Positions 18,044 through 24,425 of a stretch of 24,510 bases of DNA are shown piece by piece (the stretch's first letter is position 1; every line of letters begins with the position of its first letter). Below the pieces are notes generated by a model, which saw only the letters and a list, made by a program, of their open reading frames with translations, did no database searches and was not told the origin of the DNA. A program made the translations under genes and the position numbers. Source of the stretch: Deltaproteobacteria bacterium (GTDB lineage Bacteria > Desulfobacterota_B > Binatia > Bin18); assembly GCA_012271025.1 (NCBI GenBank), contig JAAXHF010000125.1, forward strand, positions 1 through 24,510, in the 5' to 3' direction.

Positions 18044-18775
18044 TCAGGTCGACAGGGCGTTGATTTCTTCCTCGGCCAGCTGATGAATGTCCGGGAAATT
18101 GGGCGGACGATCTTTGCTGACCAGAAAGACGGCACGAATGCCGAGGGGGATAATCGTAAACCCATCTCGGTGACTGATGCCCGATAAGGACCGTTTCCAG
18201 CGCCGCGAGACAAAGATCGATATCTCCTCGCTGCGCCGTCGATACACGAGCTGGACAAAGACTTGTCTGAGCGGCCGGCTGACCCGGGCTCGGACAAGGT
18301 GGAAGCCGACTGGGCTGAGGTTAGGAATCTCAGTCAAGCCTTCTTGACGAAGCACGTCTTTGAGGCTGTCCGGGTCCAGCCAGGGCAGGGAAAAGGTGCT
18401 GTTATCATTCAGCCAGATTTCGTGTGTCAGCGCGCCGCTGAACGCCCGGGCTTCTGGATCGTAGGGGGCTGAGAAAAGCTGCTGGCCGATGACCAGGAAG
18501 AGTATTGCGGCGGCGGCCACTCCAAGGCTACGCCAGCGCCGGTTCCAGGTCTGTGGTGAACACAGCGCCATAACCGAGGCGCGTAGCTCGTCAGTCCTGC
18601 CAACCGGTCGGTGTCCAGCTTCCCTGAGCCGTGTGTCAAGCTGCTGCATGGCGGTCAGCTCTTGCTGACACTCCGGGCAGGCATCGAGGTGTTCGGCCAC
18701 AGGAAAGGTATCACGAGCGCTGAGTTCGTTATCAAGAAAGGGGCTCAGGAGTTTGTGTACGTCTTTACAGTCCAT
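18044..18775 (-). CDS. Zinc-finger anti-sigma factor, single membrane span
   Basis: A 243-residue protein starting MDCKDVHKLLSPFLDNELS. The anti-sigma zinc site is complete: His29-x3-Cys33-x2-Cys36 (EHLDACPEC). One transmembrane helix follows at about 84-101 (LGVAAAAILFLVIGQQLF), then an approximately 140-residue outer domain rich in basic and beta segments (VFVQLVYRRRSEEISIFVSRR). It should hold the ECF sigma factor at the membrane until a signal releases it. Its ATG lies inside the end of the sigma gene (11-nt overlap), a classic translationally coupled pair. An upstream in-frame extension to 18844 is within sigma coding sequence and is rejected. Confidence 0.88.
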   Translation of the reverse strand: MDCKDVHKLLSPFLDNELSARDTFPVAEHLDACPECQQELTAMQQLDTRLREAGHRPVGRTDELRASVMALCSPQTWNRRWRSLGVAAAAILFLVIGQQLFSAPYDPEARAFSGALTHEIWLNDNSTFSLPWLDPDSLKDVLRQEGLTEIPNLSPVGFHLVRARVSRPLRQVFVQLVYRRRSEEISIFVSRRWKRSLSGISHRDGFTIIPLGIRAVFLVSKDRPPNFPDIHQLAEEEINALST

Positions 18776-19304
18776 GGCCTGAGGTCCCTTCTTTGTGCGG
18801 CAGCCCGGGCTCGGCCAAGAGACGACGCAGCTCACGCCTGGCACGGTAGAGCCGCGACATCACTGTTCCTATTGGAATATCGAGCATCTGGGCGGTTTCT
18901 TTATAGGCAAATCCTTCGACCACAACGAGCCATAACACCTGCCTAAACTGGGGGGGTAACTGGTTGACCGCAGCAAGAATATCCTGGCCCTCCCCACTTT
19001 CTTCCCCGCTTGCGGGAAACAGGCTGACGACTTTTGAGGACGTTTCGATGTCTTCGGCGCCAAGCAAGGGGTCGCGCCGTTTTTTCCCGGCCGTCTTCTT
19101 TAAGACGTTCAGGAGAATCTTAAACAACCAGGCCCGACAGTTTGTGTCTGGTGTATAGGTTTGGAACGAACGCCAAGCGCGCAAATAGGTTTCTTGGACC
19201 GCGTCTTCCGCGCGTGCCCGGTCACCGCTCAGGCGCAGTGCGGTGCGCATGAGGGTGTCGAAATGGGGAATGGCCTCCTTCTCAAATGAGGCTTTTCTCG
19301 GCAC
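18765..19304 (-). CDS. ECF-type RNA polymerase sigma factor
   Basis: A 179-residue ECF sigma factor with region 2 (SGDRARAEDAVQETYLRAWRSF, about 26-47, read in parts) and region 4 helix-turn-helix (LPPQFRQVLWLVVVEGFAYKETAQML then IPIGTVMSRLYRARRELRRLL, about 116-163). It lacks region 3 as expected. The start is taken as GTG at 19304, which follows GGAG by 9 nt; an in-frame TTG at 19343 would add 13 residues. It overlaps the anti-sigma gene. It lies 56 nt after the Rieske gene in the same direction, so it may be reached by readthrough as well as by the ECF-like promoter described nearby. Confidence 0.92.
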   Translation of the reverse strand: MPRKASFEKEAIPHFDTLMRTALRLSGDRARAEDAVQETYLRAWRSFQTYTPDTNCRAWLFKILLNVLKKTAGKKRRDPLLGAEDIETSSKVVSLFPASGEESGEGQDILAAVNQLPPQFRQVLWLVVVEGFAYKETAQMLDIPIGTVMSRLYRARRELRRLLAEPGLPHKEGTSGHGL

Positions 19305-19344
19305 GCGCGATTTCTCCTGGAAAGAGCCTGCTCTACCGTACAAT

Positions 19345-19368
19345 TAGGCCGCGCCCGACTTTATTCCC
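19345..19368 (-). promoter_or_regulatory. Candidate ECF-type promoter for the sigma/anti-sigma pair
   Basis: On the minus strand, GGGAATAAAG (19368-19359) resembles ECF -35 elements of the GGAAT-A class. It overlaps the Rieske stop codon and lies 55 nt before the sigma GTG. The matching -10 would fall near 19344-19336 (ATTGTACGG); this part is weak. Auto-regulation is typical for ECF operons. Confidence 0.35.
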
Positions 19369-19714
19369 GTCCCCGCTCTGTGTCCTGCTCAGGCGGCGAG
19401 ATCCTGAGGTAGAGGCTCCCGTTTTCAGCTTTGACCGGATATACCGTCGCCCGAGCCGGGCGTGGGCTGGTGCCGTCGCGTAGCTCGAATCGCCAGCCGT
19501 GCATCGGACATTTGATGCCGCCCCTGTCATCGACAAAGCCTCGGATAAGCGGCCCTCTGCGGTGAGGACACCGATTGTTGATGGCATACACCGTGCCGTT
19601 CAGGTTGAACAGGGCAATCTCTATGCTCTTCAGCTTGACCAGCCTGCGCGCTCCGGGTGGCAGGTCTGCGGTGGGACAGGCTTCGAGCCATTTGGCGGCA
19701 GAGTCTGGAGGCAT
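19361..19714 (-). CDS. Rieske [2Fe-2S] ferredoxin-like protein
   Basis: A 117-residue single-domain Rieske protein with the full cluster motif: Cys49-x-His51 (CPHRRGP), 17 residues, Cys69-x2-His72 (CPMHGWRF). There is no signal peptide or membrane anchor, so it is cytoplasmic, like NirD or the ferredoxins of ring-hydroxylating dioxygenases. It would pass electrons to an oxygenase or reductase that is not identified in the window. The ATG at 19714 is preferred; no Shine-Dalgarno is visible. It lies 50 nt after the cyclase-like gene in the same direction, suggesting joint expression. Confidence 0.93.
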   Translation of the reverse strand: MPPDSAAKWLEACPTADLPPGARRLVKLKSIEIALFNLNGTVYAINNRCPHRRGPLIRGFVDDRGGIKCPMHGWRFELRDGTSPRPARATVYPVKAENGSLYLRISPPEQDTERGRE

Positions 19715-19764
19715 CAATCTGAAACGTCAAACGTGGAGGCTGACGGCGGATGCCGCTCGGGGGT

Positions 19765-20736
19765 CTAGGGAATGTAGCCCCACAGCCGCACTACCGCCTG
19801 GTGGTCTGGACTGTGGTAGGCTTTGTATTTCAACAGGGTGTCAATCCCGTCGCAGGTTCGCTCCAGGTTGGTCTCCAACTCGGGGAAATCACCCCAACCG
19901 CTGGGATTCTTGTTGGTCAGAATCCAGCCCAGGCCGCGTTCAATGGTCTCCTGTCCGTGGGCATCTCCCAGCAAACGGGTCACCACCATCAGCGACCGGG
20001 TACAGTCCATGGTGTGATCAACATTTTCTCCGTCCCAGGAACCGTCTGCGGCCTGCCACTCATACAGCTTTTGTGCCCCCTTGGTGCATGACTCCCGCAC
20101 GCCGCTGAGTTGGCCGTCCATGGCCAAGTCGGCAATCAGGGCATCTTGAATCAGGTGGGCGGTGATCTCAACGCCCGAGGGATGGAACTCGTCGTCGTAC
20201 CAGCCTCCGTCCGGGCTTTGATTGTCAAGAATGAACCGGGCACCCTTTTGCCACGCGGGCACGACTTCAGACCGCCGATAGGGCTCGCCCAAGGCCATGA
20301 CTACGTTGAAGAAACTGACCGGATGGCTGGTGGTATCGAGGTCCGCCCAGCTGGGATCGACCCATCGACCGTCGGCGTGTTGGGTGTCGAGAAAATAGTC
20401 AATCGCTCTACGCACGGCCTGACCGATCCGAGCCTGGTGCAAAAAACGATTGCCTCGGATCAGCATCAGTCCGCAAAAGGCTGAGACCCACACCGTGCTC
20501 TCGGAGTCAGCCGAAAACGGACTCCAGCCCCCGTCCTGCGCCTGGCAGTCGGCCAGGGCCAGATAGTCGGCCAGGAAATCCGGGCTGGTGCGGGCGTGCA
20601 GGATGACCCGCAACGCATGGGCGACCAGCTCCAGATCCTGAGGGCCGTGGGTCAAACTCCAGCCCTGTTTTTCCTGAACAAAAAACGCGTATTCGTCCTG
20701 CACCACGCGATCAATGTGTTCGAGAGCAAGCCCCAT
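19765..20736 (-). CDS. Squalene-cyclase/prenyltransferase-like alpha-toroid protein
   Basis: A 323-residue protein built of QW-like repeats at about 67-71 (QDGGW), 121-125 (ADGRW), 175-179 (PDGGW), 230-234 (ADGSW) and 278-283 (SGWGDF). These mark the (alpha/alpha)6 toroid of terpene cyclases and prenyltransferase beta subunits. At half the length of squalene-hopene cyclase it is one domain only. The class II acid motif DxDD is replaced by DLDTT (132-136), and a MDCTRS segment near 243-248 recalls the DCTAE motif of oxidosqualene cyclases, so classic cyclisation is doubtful. It starts 22 nt after the PEP-mutase-like fusion gene, with AAGGA upstream. Its role is unknown; terpenoid, lipid or scaffold functions are possible. 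Confidence 0.82.
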   Translation of the reverse strand: MGLALEHIDRVVQDEYAFFVQEKQGWSLTHGPQDLELVAHALRVILHARTSPDFLADYLALADCQAQDGGWSPFSADSESTVWVSAFCGLMLIRGNRFLHQARIGQAVRRAIDYFLDTQHADGRWVDPSWADLDTTSHPVSFFNVVMALGEPYRRSEVVPAWQKGARFILDNQSPDGGWYDDEFHPSGVEITAHLIQDALIADLAMDGQLSGVRESCTKGAQKLYEWQAADGSWDGENVDHTMDCTRSLMVVTRLLGDAHGQETIERGLGWILTNKNPSGWGDFPELETNLERTCDGIDTLLKYKAYHSPDHQAVVRLWGYIP

Positions 20737-20758: not shown

Positions 20759-22435
20759 TTATTTCATTTTCGCCCACGCCCGACGATAATCCTCAAAGGT
20801 GTCAATTTCCAGCCAGCCTTTATAGATATCTACACACGCGACCTGATGGTCGTGGTTGACTAGTTCCTGCAACATGTCGGTAAAAGCGGCCCGTTGGATC
20901 GAGATGGCCTCGTGAAAGCGGCCGGTGTGAAACCGTTCGCGAACCCCGTGATAGGTCTGGCGTAGGAGTTGGGCGCCCATCTCAGAGAACATGGCCAGGC
21001 CGATAAACTCTCCATCGGCGTCTCGGGCCGACAGGTTTCGGCCAATACGGGACAGTGTCGTGCCTTCCGTGGCTGGCAGAAAGCGGTAGCCGGGCTGGGG
21101 CGGTTGGTGGGTGACGACAAGGTCCGGCTTATTGGCCTGAAGCTCCTCGGCTGAGCGGGGCTGATCATTCCACGCCCGATCAACCACGATGCTGATATCG
21201 GCCTGCGACCTGAGCAATTTTTCGACGATGGTCGGGTCGAAGATAATATCGGAGTACAGAAACAGAAACGGTCCCGACATTTCCGTTTCGGCCACAAACA
21301 GCGAGATCAACTCTCCGGTATCGAGAAACGCGTCGTTGTCGTAGTAGCGGATGTTGGGCAGATTGATCTGTTCCTTTTGGTAGCCACGCACCACGATGAT
21401 ATCTTTCACCCCGCACTCGTTCAGGGCGCTGATCTGGCGCTCAAGAATCGTCTGGCCCTTGATTTCCAGCATCGCCTTGGGACGATCTTCAATGAGCGGC
21501 AGCAGGTTTTCTTCAAAGCCTGCGGCGATAATAATGGCCGTGACTCGGTGCCCGCCCGGAACGAGAAATTTTTGCTCGTTGGCCTGTAGAGCGGGGACGC
21601 CGACCAACTCGTAGATGTCGGACAGGCTGGCAATCTGGTCGTCCACCGCAGCCGGCCGTTCCTCGGCCTTGAGGGTGGTGAGGGCGTGGCGCATCGCGCT
21701 GACGGCCGCCCGCAAGACTTGGTTGGCAAAGATAATCAGCCTGAAGCCGGCTGCTGCCAGCTCAGCCGTGCTAGTGTCGGCGTAGGTTGTTGGTACACAC
21801 ACCAGAGGGCAGGCATTGTCCCAGTCAGCCGTGAAGTTTTGGAGTTCCTCGAAGCCTGCCGCCTTTGAGTGGACCAGAATGGCGTCGGCTCCTGCTTCGG
21901 CGTAGGCCCTGGCACGCTTGAGCGCTTCGTGTTTGCCCCAGCCGGCAATCAGGGCCTCGGTGCGGGCGATGACGACAAAATTGGGATCGTTTTGCGCCGC
22001 CTTGGCGGCCTGGATCTTCCGGGCGTGCTCATCAACAGGAACCAACTCGCGTCGGACCCCGGCGTAAAAGCTGCACCGTTTCGGAAAGATGTTGTCCTCA
22101 ATACACAGCCCAGCGACACCCGCCCGCTCGTATTCGGCAACCGTGCGGATGACATTGATAGCGTTGCCAAAGCCATTATCACAGTCAGCAATAACGGGGA
22201 TGTTGACCGCTGCGCTCATGCGTCGGACCGCGTCAAGCGTTTCACTCATGGTCAGGATATTGGCATCGGGCAGGGCGCTGACCGCAGAAATGCCAAAACC
22301 GCTCGCCCAGATCGCATCAAACCCGGCTTCTTCAGCTAGCCTTGCCGACAGTGCATCGTGGGCTCCGAGGACGAGGCTTGGCTGGGAACGGCGGAGCAAA
22401 GCACGCAGTTTTTCTGTCATCGAAAGGCCAGGCAT
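20759..22435 (-). CDS. PEP-mutase-superfamily enzyme fused to a nucleotidyltransferase domain
   Basis: A 558-residue two-domain protein. Residues 1-295 follow PEP mutase closely: AHDALSARLAEEAGFDAIWASG, Asp57, Asp84/Asp86 (DCDNGFGN), Glu113 and Arg158 (ARTEALIAGWG), all at PepM metal/substrate positions with a one-residue offset from the Mytilus enzyme. The gating loop reads EDNIFPKRCS instead of EDK-x5-NS; Cys121 replaces Asn122, matching the KRC of isocitrate/methylisocitrate lyases. Residues 298-558 are a sugar/CTP-type nucleotidyltransferase (RPKAMLEIKGQTILE, YSDIIFD), but the G-x-G-x-R loop is degenerate (AAGFEENLLPL). The fold suggests phosphonate or related C-P/C-C chemistry plus nucleotide activation, as in PepM-cytidylyltransferase fusions. 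A longer frame from GTG 22543 adds a low-complexity N-terminus; 22435 fits the promoter and family. Confidence 0.88.
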   Translation of the reverse strand: MPGLSMTEKLRALLRRSQPSLVLGAHDALSARLAEEAGFDAIWASGFGISAVSALPDANILTMSETLDAVRRMSAAVNIPVIADCDNGFGNAINVIRTVAEYERAGVAGLCIEDNIFPKRCSFYAGVRRELVPVDEHARKIQAAKAAQNDPNFVVIARTEALIAGWGKHEALKRARAYAEAGADAILVHSKAAGFEELQNFTADWDNACPLVCVPTTYADTSTAELAAAGFRLIIFANQVLRAAVSAMRHALTTLKAEERPAAVDDQIASLSDIYELVGVPALQANEQKFLVPGGHRVTAIIIAAGFEENLLPLIEDRPKAMLEIKGQTILERQISALNECGVKDIIVVRGYQKEQINLPNIRYYDNDAFLDTGELISLFVAETEMSGPFLFLYSDIIFDPTIVEKLLRSQADISIVVDRAWNDQPRSAEELQANKPDLVVTHQPPQPGYRFLPATEGTTLSRIGRNLSARDADGEFIGLAMFSEMGAQLLRQTYHGVRERFHTGRFHEAISIQRAAFTDMLQELVNHDHQVACVDIYKGWLEIDTFEDYRRAWAKMK

Positions 22436-22442
22436 GGCCGAG

Positions 22443-22471
22443 ACTATACGACCTCGGGTCCGAGACGACAA
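22443..22471 (-). promoter_or_regulatory. Sigma-70-type promoter just before the PEP-mutase-like gene
   Basis: On the minus strand, TTGTCG (22471-22466), a 17-bp spacer, then TATAGT (22448-22443, 5/6). The -10 ends only 7 nt before the ATG at 22435, so transcription should begin at or next to the start codon. The spacer holds a palindrome, CTCGG-GT-CCGAG (22453-22464), a possible operator. Confidence 0.5.
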
Positions 22472-22511
22472 GTGCCCGAGCGGTCCGGTGCCTGGCTTGG
22501 CGGTCGTCTGT

Positions 22512-24425
22512 TCAGACGGCTGGATCGATGCGCTGGAGGTCACCTAAGGCGAGACGAATTTCGTCCAGACGGTCGTCCAGGGCGGTCGGCGCATCAATCG
22601 CAAACACGGCTCCCTGCCAGCGGTCGGGATCTCGGAGCCAGGCCGCAAGGATGACACTGGCGTCGATTTCTTCCGGTCGTAGGGGCGGGTCACGGTCCTG
22701 GCTGAAACGTTCCCGAGTCAGACGGGCAAAGGTGGCGATATCGTCCTCTGAGTGGACGGGGCTGCCATGGATGAGCCTCCCGTTGAGCACCAAATAGGCT
22801 TGGGCAGCTCCGGGCTGGTGGCCGGGCAGGAGCAGGAAAGCGTGGGCGCGGGTAATGATCCAGTTGAAGCGGCGGTGCATATTCAGGATATGGTCGAGCA
22901 GCTCGAGGTCTTTTTGCAGACGGGCCGCGCTTTCGAAGCGCAGGCGGGCGGCCAGTGCGTCGCGTTTGGCCAGCAGGGAATCCCGCACTCCGGTATCGTT
23001 GCCCTCGAGAAACCGCTGAAAGGTCTCGACCTGTTCTTGATACGCGGCACGTGACACCTGCACATTACACGGGGCGCTGCAAGCGCCGATCTGCCCGCTG
23101 ACGCACGGAGAAAAGTCCGGGTCCGGAGTCAAATTCCCCTGACAGGTACGCAGACCAAACAGGCGGGCTAACAGTCCCTGGGCTTGTTCAGCAAGCGCCC
23201 GGCTCCGAAAGGGGCCGATGTACAGAGCCCGATTGCTGGCTGGCTTGGTGGCCAGGGACAGACGGGGAAACGGATTGGTCACGCTCAGTTTGAGGAAGGC
23301 AACCCGGGGGAGGTGTTTTGAACGGGTGTTATAGGGCGGTTTGAGGGTGCGGATGAGCGTTGCCTCGCGGAGCGCGGCCTCAAGCTCTGAGCCCGTCTGT
23401 TCGTAGCTGACGTCGTGGACATGGCGCACGAGGTCGAGCACTTTGTCGCTGTGGCCGGCGGAGTTGGTGAAGTACGAACGGACCCGCCGTTTGAGGTTTT
23501 TTGCCTTCCCGATATACAGCAGCCGGCCCTCGCGGTTCAGCATGCGATACACGCCGGGCCCGTCCGGGATACGGGCCAGCGCCAGACGGGGCAGCTGATA
23601 TTCAAAGCGGCGCCCGTCGCGGGCGATATGCTGAAAGTCGAGCAACTGGCTGAGGGTCGTGATGCCACGCGCCGGCAGCTGTTCCAGAAAGATGAGAAAC
23701 ACCTCCGCGGTGATCCGTGCGTCGCCCAGGGCTCGGTGGCGGTCAGGACCTGACACGCCACACTGTGCGGCCAGCGCGTCGAGGGTGCGGGAACGGAGGC
23801 TGGGCAAGAGACGCTTGGCCAAACGCCGGGTGCACAGGACGGGGTTGAGCAGTGGGCCAGCCATGAGACGCTGGGCGTCATGATTAAGGAAAGCCAGATC
23901 AAAATCGGCGTGATGAGCGACAAGCGGGGCCGAGCCAATAAAGGTTTGGAAGTCCGGAAAGACCGCATCGATACGTGGCTGGTCACGCAGCATGTGGTCG
24001 GTGATGCCAGTCAGCCGGATCACGGCTGGCGGGATCCGGCGGCCGGGATTGACCAAGGCGTGAAACTCGTCCGTCAGCCGTCCGTGTGTGATCCGAACCG
24101 CAGCCATTTCGGTGATGGCTGCCGGGCCTGGTTTGAAGCCGGTCGTTTCGAGATCGAGGACGACAAACTCGGTATCGGCAATCGCCCGCTGGAGAGCGCT
24201 ATGGATGGTGGCATACCAAAGATCACTCGCCGCGTCATACGCAAAATGCGGGTCGGTACCGATCGCCGTATGCAGAAAACGGGTATCGAACTCGAGCCTC
24301 CGATTGGGCCTGAGGCCCGAACCCGCTCCGGGTGTGAAGAGCACGTTCAAGAGCTCGGCCGAGCTGGCCCCTCCGGGTCGCGCGGCCACATAGTCGTAGA
24401 GTTTCTGGCGCACGGTAGGGAACAT
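22512..24425 (-). CDS. DnaQ-type exonuclease fused to a UvrC/Cho-like GIY-YIG nuclease
   Basis: A 637-residue fusion. Residues 1-80 look like a small winged-helix-type domain. Residues 85-250 are a DEDDh 3'-5' exonuclease: Asp91/Glu93 (DLETTG), Asp174 (HHADFDLAFLN), His230 and Asp235 (DRHRALGDAR). Residues 288-370 are GIY-YIG: GVY (291-293), YIG (304-306), the RRVRS arginines and Glu354 (REATLIR). Four Cys (428, 441, 449, 453) match the UvrC Cys cluster, followed by a UVR-like helix (LAARLRFESAARLQKDLELL, 491-510). The UvrC C-terminal endonuclease and HhH domains are absent, so it could make only the GIY-YIG-side incision, like Cho. Similar exonuclease-GIY-YIG fusions occur in actinobacteria. 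No uvrA/uvrB is adjacent. The start has no clear Shine-Dalgarno. Confidence 0.92.
   Translation of the reverse strand: MFPTVRQKLYDYVAARPGGASSAELLNVLFTPGAGSGLRPNRRLEFDTRFLHTAIGTDPHFAYDAASDLWYATIHSALQRAIADTEFVVLDLETTGFKPGPAAITEMAAVRITHGRLTDEFHALVNPGRRIPPAVIRLTGITDHMLRDQPRIDAVFPDFQTFIGSAPLVAHHADFDLAFLNHDAQRLMAGPLLNPVLCTRRLAKRLLPSLRSRTLDALAAQCGVSGPDRHRALGDARITAEVFLIFLEQLPARGITTLSQLLDFQHIARDGRRFEYQLPRLALARIPDGPGVYRMLNREGRLLYIGKAKNLKRRVRSYFTNSAGHSDKVLDLVRHVHDVSYEQTGSELEAALREATLIRTLKPPYNTRSKHLPRVAFLKLSVTNPFPRLSLATKPASNRALYIGPFRSRALAEQAQGLLARLFGLRTCQGNLTPDPDFSPCVSGQIGACSAPCNVQVSRAAYQEQVETFQRFLEGNDTGVRDSLLAKRDALAARLRFESAARLQKDLELLDHILNMHRRFNWIITRAHAFLLLPGHQPGAAQAYLVLNGRLIHGSPVHSEDDIATFARLTRERFSQDRDPPLRPEEIDASVILAAWLRDPDRWQGAVFAIDAPTALDDRLDEIRLALGDLQRIDPAV

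Follow-up and report, generated by a model that had tools for sequence, protein, structure and literature searches.

A probable cysteine-type phosphoenolpyruvate mutase fused to a nucleotidyltransferase in a Binatia contig

Introduction

The gene considered here lies on the minus strand of a 24,510-nucleotide stretch of DNA (contig JAAXHF010000125.1, Deltaproteobacteria bacterium, Binatia; hereafter the window). It encodes a 553-residue protein in which a phosphoenolpyruvate (PEP) mutase domain is followed by a nucleotidyltransferase domain. In the accessible part of PMC8931226, virtually all known phosphonate biosynthesis is taken to start with PEP mutase (PepM, Ppm or AepX; TIGR02320; PDB 1pym and 5unc). 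In the accessible part of the review PMC7916636, the phosphonyl contacts are given as Arg159, His190 and, hypothetically, Asn122 and Ser123. Most authors credit the difference between PepM and phosphonopyruvate hydrolase to the exchange of Asn122 for Thr, which the review itself doubts. Fusions of PepM to a MobA-like nucleotidyltransferase (Ppm-NTP_transf_3) are known from Rice et al. (2019; PMC6697681). According to the available passages of that survey, only EDKXXXXXNS sequences were retained and 26,231 others were discarded, 22 of them fusions. In their available passages, four surveys applied the EDKX5NS filter (PMC6697681, PMC8931226, PMC9426474 and PMC12723261).

The window protein shares with PepM the TIM barrel, the Mg site, equivalents of Lys120, Ser123, Arg159 and His190, 48% identity to 5unc and the fusion to PF12804. 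Many of its relatives neighbour genes for the decarboxylase Ppd, a 2-aminoethylphosphonate (AEP) transaminase, a nucleotidyltransferase and a CDP-alcohol transferase, a cluster logic similar to that of the described fusions. It differs from PepM in having EDN-x5-CS (hereafter EDN-CS) in place of EDK-x5-NS. Phosphonopyruvate hydrolase (TIGR02321; PDB 2dua) has the same fold and Mg site and is also changed at the Asn122 position, but it has EDK..TS and no fused nucleotidyltransferase. 2-Methylisocitrate lyase and its relatives (PrpB, petal death protein, 2,3-dimethylmalate lyase) have a K-[KR]-C loop with the Cys at the same position; eight lyase rows, however, read EDQ and C-G where the window protein reads EDN and C-S-F.

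The window gene is considered to encode a Cys-type PEP mutase fused to a nucleotidyltransferase and functional in phosphonate biosynthesis, with a probability of about 0.8. We infer the reaction, the role of the Cys and the end product from sequence, predicted fold, relationships, gene context and phyletic pattern. The mutase function is proposed because of the gene context, a fusion to Ppd, the lack of any other PepM in the 24 carrier genomes searched and the fact that no Nitrospira genome examined combines this gene with a canonical PepM.

Active site and loop motif

The minus strand of positions 22067-22099 was translated as EDNIFPKRCSF. This bears out the initial annotation, which had read the loop EDNIFPKRCS (22070-22099), with a lyase-type Cys, on a PepM scaffold. 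The PepM landmarks had been placed at a one-residue offset from the Mytilus enzyme, and alignments agreed: D57, D84, D86, E113, K119, S122 and R158, numbered with M37 of the longest open reading frame (ORF), an ATG, as the first residue, correspond to Mytilus D58, D85, D87, E114, K120, S123 and R159. His189 (Mytilus H190) is also retained. In alignment A2, these eight residues were common to 42/42 EDN rows and 14/14 canonical rows. Two columns split the groups without exception: 116 (Asn in 42, Lys in 14) and 122 (Cys in 42, Asn in 14). Compared with Mytilus PepM, the loop of the window protein carries the changes Lys116 to Asn, Thr121 to Arg and Asn122 to Cys. Neither the EDKX5NS motif of PepM nor the EDKx5TS loop of phosphonopyruvate hydrolase was matched. 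The KRC of the lyase loop (K-[KR]-C-G-H) is present, with G-H replaced by S-F. Judged by its residues, the loop is a true hybrid site, as had been proposed, joining a lyase-like KRC to the mutase Ser.

The N-terminal domain matched PF13714 at 213.2 bits. The protein stayed below the curated cut-off of each related family: 287.8 bits against 319.55 for PepM (TIGR02320), 262.3 against 374.4 for phosphonopyruvate hydrolase (TIGR02321), 193.1 against 354.4 for the lyase (TIGR02317) and 138.6 against 420.05 for CPEP phosphonomutase (TIGR02319). The earlier statement that this is not a standard PepM thus holds for both motif and score. PF13714 is followed by PF12804 within one protein, as in Ppm-nucleotidyltransferase fusions.

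The nucleotidyltransferase fusion is a feature beyond what the initial annotation stated. Structure matches of this domain were LicC (1jyk, E 3.1e-14) and a nucleotidyl transferase/aminotransferase (6pd1, E 5e-6). Its usual GxGxR loop is degenerate. In the A2 columns, Lys315 and Asp391 were present in 42/42 EDN rows and Asp540 in 40/42; we take these three to be the catalytic residues of the domain.

Family extent and relationships

The motif EDN[IVL][FY]PKRCS was found in 121/121 sequences, i.e. the query and its best 120 homologues in a protein search, all at >=58% identity. Chance or sequencing error was excluded because of this recurrence. A search with the PepM domain gave 117 further proteins among the matches listed, of which 113 had EDNx[FY]PKxCS and two RSS; no motif was found in the other two. 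The best 120 matches of a canonical fusion (L025) all had EDKx[FY]PKxNS. A genome scan gave at least 80 loci, in Binatia, Nitrospirota, Myxococcota, Acidobacteriota, Planctomycetota, Rokubacteria, Omnitrophota and others; among the Myxococcota were the complete genomes of Sorangium cellulosum and Minicystis rosea. The Cys-Ser pair was retained in all 80; 77 had EDN-x5-CS, and the x5-CS was preceded by EDQ in L092, EDS in L100 and EDA in L108.

Three proteins recorded under Aspergillus violaceofuscus, A. niger and A. tubingensis (P0251, P0268 and P0293) have an EDN-CS PepM domain that is 63-69% identical to the bacterial query, and a transfer to fungi is possible. One locus (L056, CAMBZJ010000034.1) is titled 'MAG: Klebsiella pneumoniae'. 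In genome G032 the gene sits at identical contig coordinates, and the organism label of L056 looks wrong, since G032 belongs to the same class as the genome nearest to the window.

PepM was the nearest structure for the isocitrate lyase/PEP mutase TIM-barrel fold of the window protein. Fold and tree placed the EDN-CS proteins with PepM and phosphonopyruvate hydrolase, apart from the lyases, which were separated with 100/100 support. Motif columns were excluded from all protein trees, whose size was limited by omitting 12 of the greedily picked EDN rows. The initial annotation had raised the question whether EDN-x5-CS proteins form a clade of their own. In the trees they fell outside the EDK clade (support 98/96); their monophyly gave p-AU 0.445 in an earlier test and 0.201 in a later one. 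On these alignments they may be either the sister or the stem group of the EDK-type enzymes. A metagenomic protein (P0341), which stood beside the hydrolases in the first trees, has an N-terminal half of the EDN-CS type and a C-terminal half of the hydrolase type. It is probably an assembly chimera and was dropped from later trees.

Gene neighbourhood

The ORFs of the 80 loci and the window were clustered and the cluster representatives were identified. Recurrent neighbours were a split thiamine diphosphate (ThDP) decarboxylase (Ppd alpha/beta), a class V aminotransferase of the AEP family, an additional nucleotidyltransferase, a CDP-alcohol phosphatidyltransferase and an HpnL-like membrane protein. 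The aminotransferase representative scored 354.3 bits against a cut-off of 360.8. Neighbours were scored by tblastn (>=60 bits) in the sequence retrieved around each gene, which reached at most 10 kb to either side, and Nitrospirota loci were assigned by record title. Ppd was nearby in 31/41 Nitrospirota loci, 21/30 others and 0/9 loci of the window's own family (f1), i.e. in 52/71 outside f1. The transaminase was nearby in 31/41, 8/30 and 0/9, respectively. Some misses reflect short contigs and others do not (e.g. L047 and L083). Nucleotidyltransferase matches within f1 loci are the fused domain of the target itself and were excluded from the counts. In one protein (P0347), an EDN-CS PepM and Ppd alpha are joined. 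Four canonical fusions in the window's phylum (L288-L291) all had Ppd alpha and beta, a nucleotidyltransferase and the transaminase nearby, and three of them a CDP-alcohol transferase match.

Genome comparisons for the window's class were made with relatives round G001. The target gene was found in 13/16 f1 genomes; it is in two pieces in G015 and only a C-terminal fragment in G003. All 16 carry Ppd and transaminase at another locus, and eight of these transaminases exceed the curated cut-off. Eleven further genomes of the class bear the target; in ten of them it neighbours Ppd on one contig, and in G028 a contig end intervenes. Ppd was rejected as a co-occurrence marker in this class, where several target-free genomes hold Ppd-like paralogues (up to 22 matches). 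A transaminase at >=300 bits was used instead, a threshold picked after the scores were seen.

On the single contig of G008, the second locus (L175 3528-12191) comprises Ppd alpha, Ppd beta, transaminase, nucleotidyltransferase and YdjC-like genes behind MlaA, MlaC and MMPL genes, a company that hints at a lipid product.

Sole PepM candidate and replacement in Nitrospira

In each of 24 carrier genomes from the 80 loci, a canonical PepM query found one protein at E<=1e-40, always the Cys-type gene; G059 and G069 of this set share their coordinates with G032 and G053 among the relatives and are apparently identical assemblies. Ppd-like genes were present in 23/24 carriers (498.1 bits in G078, cut-off 312.5) and a transaminase above 300 bits in 14/24.

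Among 79 Nitrospira genomes, 74 carry one PepM-type fusion (29 EDN-CS, 44 EDKLFPKTNS and one motif-less fragment) and five carry none; 28 of the EDN-CS motifs were read together, and that of G060 was taken from locus L058. None of the 79 carries both EDN-CS and EDK-NS. Fisher's test on 78 of them (fragment left out) gave 1.3e-16, a value inflated by kinship, of which the co-occurrence tests take no account. As a partial control for kinship, an rpoB tree was built; of 30 genomes requested for it, 27 entered (no match in G119 and G127, only pieces in G096). The label switches three times in this tree, each time forced by well-supported branches. As the two types replace each other and never coexist, they most simply do the same job.

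Evaluation of the proposed function

Several observations weigh against a PEP mutase. The window protein misses both the EDKX5NS motif and the TIGR02320 cut-off. A Cys at position 122 could change the reaction, because this position is mostly held responsible for the mutase or hydrolase outcome (PMC7916636, accessible part). No Ppd lies beside the gene in the window or in the nine named f1 loci. In two f1 genomes (G004 and G009; 88% and 84% complete), Ppd and transaminase are present and no PepM of either type was detected, which may be due to incomplete assemblies or to a further PepM variant. The family is also patchy in the window's phylum: of 297 genomes drawn across it, three had an EDN-CS match and four a canonical match (E<=1e-80). 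Ten of the 24 carriers, including both Sorangium genomes and Minicystis, have no transaminase above 300 bits; the product is therefore not uniform, and these ten need another product or another transaminase. In Nitrospira, the EDN-CS genes lie near Ppd (27/28), transaminase (27/28) and CDP-alcohol transferase (25/28) far more often than the EDK-NS genes (17/44, 0/44 and 0/44). Since the two types keep different gene company, their exclusion may reflect rival pathways rather than a one-for-one exchange. The two types may have the first step in common and diverge after it, and the EDK-type fusions (L185-L228) probably yield a product different from that of the EDN-CS clusters. Finally, the Nitrospira Ppd beta subunit scored 181.6 bits for sulfopyruvate decarboxylase (TIGR03846) and 170.6 for Ppd, both below cut-off.

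This last result would suit a mutase-like enzyme of a sulfonate or other 3-substituted pyruvate pathway, in which the neighbouring decarboxylases would be sulfopyruvate decarboxylases. The Ppd of G078, however, scored 498.4 bits against 130.5 for sulfopyruvate beta. The transaminase is of the AEP family and exceeds its cut-off in eight f1 genomes, a fused nucleotidyltransferase and a CDP-alcohol transferase suit a phosphonate, and homologous clusters also occur with canonical PepM; of the three alternatives weighed here, this one has the slimmest prospects. A C-C lyase of the methylisocitrate, 2,3-dimethylmalate or oxaloacetate type, with the Cys as acid/base, is slightly easier to entertain and still very improbable. 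The PKRC of the window protein matches the lyase loop (L026, L027, L029 and L030), and the eight lyase rows form an outgroup that shares the Cys. Yet the Gly-His that follows the Cys in lyases is Ser-Phe here, the TIGR02317 score is far too low and the lyases form a distinct clade. Relatives' genomes also have separate paralogues (the five read have EDQ..RCG), and the gene context is that of phosphonates.

The loss of Asn at position 122 would also fit a phosphonopyruvate hydrolase or other C-P hydrolase, by which phosphonopyruvate is hydrolysed rather than formed from PEP. The TIGR02321 score is far under its cut-off. Two hydrolase-type loci (L181 and L182) have an aminotransferase, and within the 3.9-4.0 kb covered neither Ppd nor a nucleotidyltransferase nor a CDP-alcohol transferase is annotated. 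The fusions to nucleotidyltransferase and Ppd and the exclusion with PepM in Nitrospira favour biosynthesis, and a hydrolase is judged improbable. The new lyase or hydrolase suggested by the initial annotation is therefore not supported: the missing Gly-His, the position of the lyases in the tree, the context and the exclusion point to a PEP mutase. A Cys-type mutase is unexpected, yet it may be compatible with the account of Asn122 in the accessible part of PMC7916636.

Proposed reaction

In a Cys-type mutase, PEP would be bound by Mg2+ held via D52, D79, D81 and E108 (553-residue numbering). The phosphoryl group would be held by Lys114, Ser117, Arg153 and His184, and the gating loop would then close. 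Transfer of the phosphoryl group from O to C3 would yield phosphonopyruvate, Cys116 standing where PepM has Asn122. The ThDP decarboxylase (Ppd alpha/beta) would pull the unfavourable equilibrium to phosphonoacetaldehyde, and the AEP transaminase, where its gene exists, would form AEP. Fused and free nucleotidyltransferase and CDP-alcohol transferase activities may then join the phosphonate to a lipid, glycan or other surface acceptor. A covalent phosphocysteine intermediate is speculation.

It is conceivable, though rather doubtful, that the EDN-CS enzymes are survivors of the step from a Cys-dependent C-C lyase to a C-P-forming mutase. They would have kept the lyase Cys, already make phosphonopyruvate and use the Cys on the phosphoryl group where PepM uses Asn, e.g. 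as a transient phosphocysteine or as a thiol steering metaphosphate. The loop series EDQ..RCG to EDN..RCS to EDK..NS or TS is part of the same tentative proposal. If it were true, phosphonate production by a chemistry distinct from that of PepM would have gone unrecognised in lineages such as many Nitrospira species, Sorangium and Binatia.

Implications for surveys of phosphonate producers

The domain architecture and the pathway are known (PMC6697681, accessible part); the Cys-type motif appears to be new, the enzyme being not a PepM as currently defined and probably working like one. A description of an EDN-x5-CS PepM was not found in literature searches of titles and abstract starts, with most subscription journals outside their coverage. 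The same Cys in a characterised PEP mutase, which the initial annotation had named as contrary evidence, was not met in the searches made. Many EDN-CS proteins are already named 'phosphoenolpyruvate phosphomutase' by JGI, an automatic label. KEGG numbers were the basis for a count of Nitrospirota pepM in a lake study (PMC10734540), whose accessible passages do not include the motif difference.

The EDN-CS family would escape the four surveys mentioned above because its motif fails the EDKX5NS filter. It is a widespread, overlooked family, probably forming C-P bonds in environmental bacteria, and phosphonate producers may have been missed. If its members are PEP mutases, producers are undercounted in Nitrospirota, Myxococcota, Acidobacteriota, Planctomycetota and Binatia, and the family may account for some genomes that have a decarboxylase and no recognised pepM; in the accessible part of one survey (PMC9381506), pepM was present in 90% of aepY genomes. 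The family is also a natural test of the role of residue 122 in the lyase, hydrolase and mutase split of the superfamily.

Features of the window

Coordinates are given in Table 1. The GTG extension is probably not translated, because the closest homologues are recorded at 553 residues and it overlaps the upstream gene. Many homologues start near M42 (longest-ORF numbering) and some are recorded longer.

Table 1. Features in and around the fusion gene (window coordinates)
Feature	Position	Strand	Remarks
PepM-nucleotidyltransferase fusion gene	20759..22420	-	553 aa, ATG at 22420; five nearest homologues also 553 aa
In-frame upstream extension to GTG at 22543	22421..22543	-	41 codons; overlaps end of upstream gene
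PEP mutase/isocitrate lyase TIM-barrel domain	21551..22420	-	residues 1-290
Gating-loop motif EDNIFPKRCS	22070..22099	-	translation
Cys codon	22073..22075	-	aligns with PepM Asn122, hydrolase Thr, lyase Cys
MobA/LicC-like nucleotidyltransferase domain	20762..21547	-	residues 292-553; PF12804, 44 bits
Squalene-hopene-cyclase-like gene	19765..20736	-	323 aa; 22 nt downstream of fusion gene; PF13243
Rieske ferredoxin-like gene	19361..19717	-	next after cyclase-like gene; PF00355; cluster c18

The squalene-hopene-cyclase-like gene follows the target in 8/9 named f1 loci, the ninth ending at a contig end, and the Rieske ferredoxin-like gene was found in eight named f1 loci and the window. In L056, a member of the cyclase-like cluster lies between the target and Ppd. 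Downstream of the Rieske gene (18044-19343), an ECF sigma factor and a zinc-finger anti-sigma-like gene form a pair on the same strand. Immediately upstream of the fusion gene (22512-24425) lies a fusion of a DEDD exonuclease to a GIY-YIG (UvrC N-terminal-like) domain (cluster c19), which also precedes the target in relatives of the window's family.
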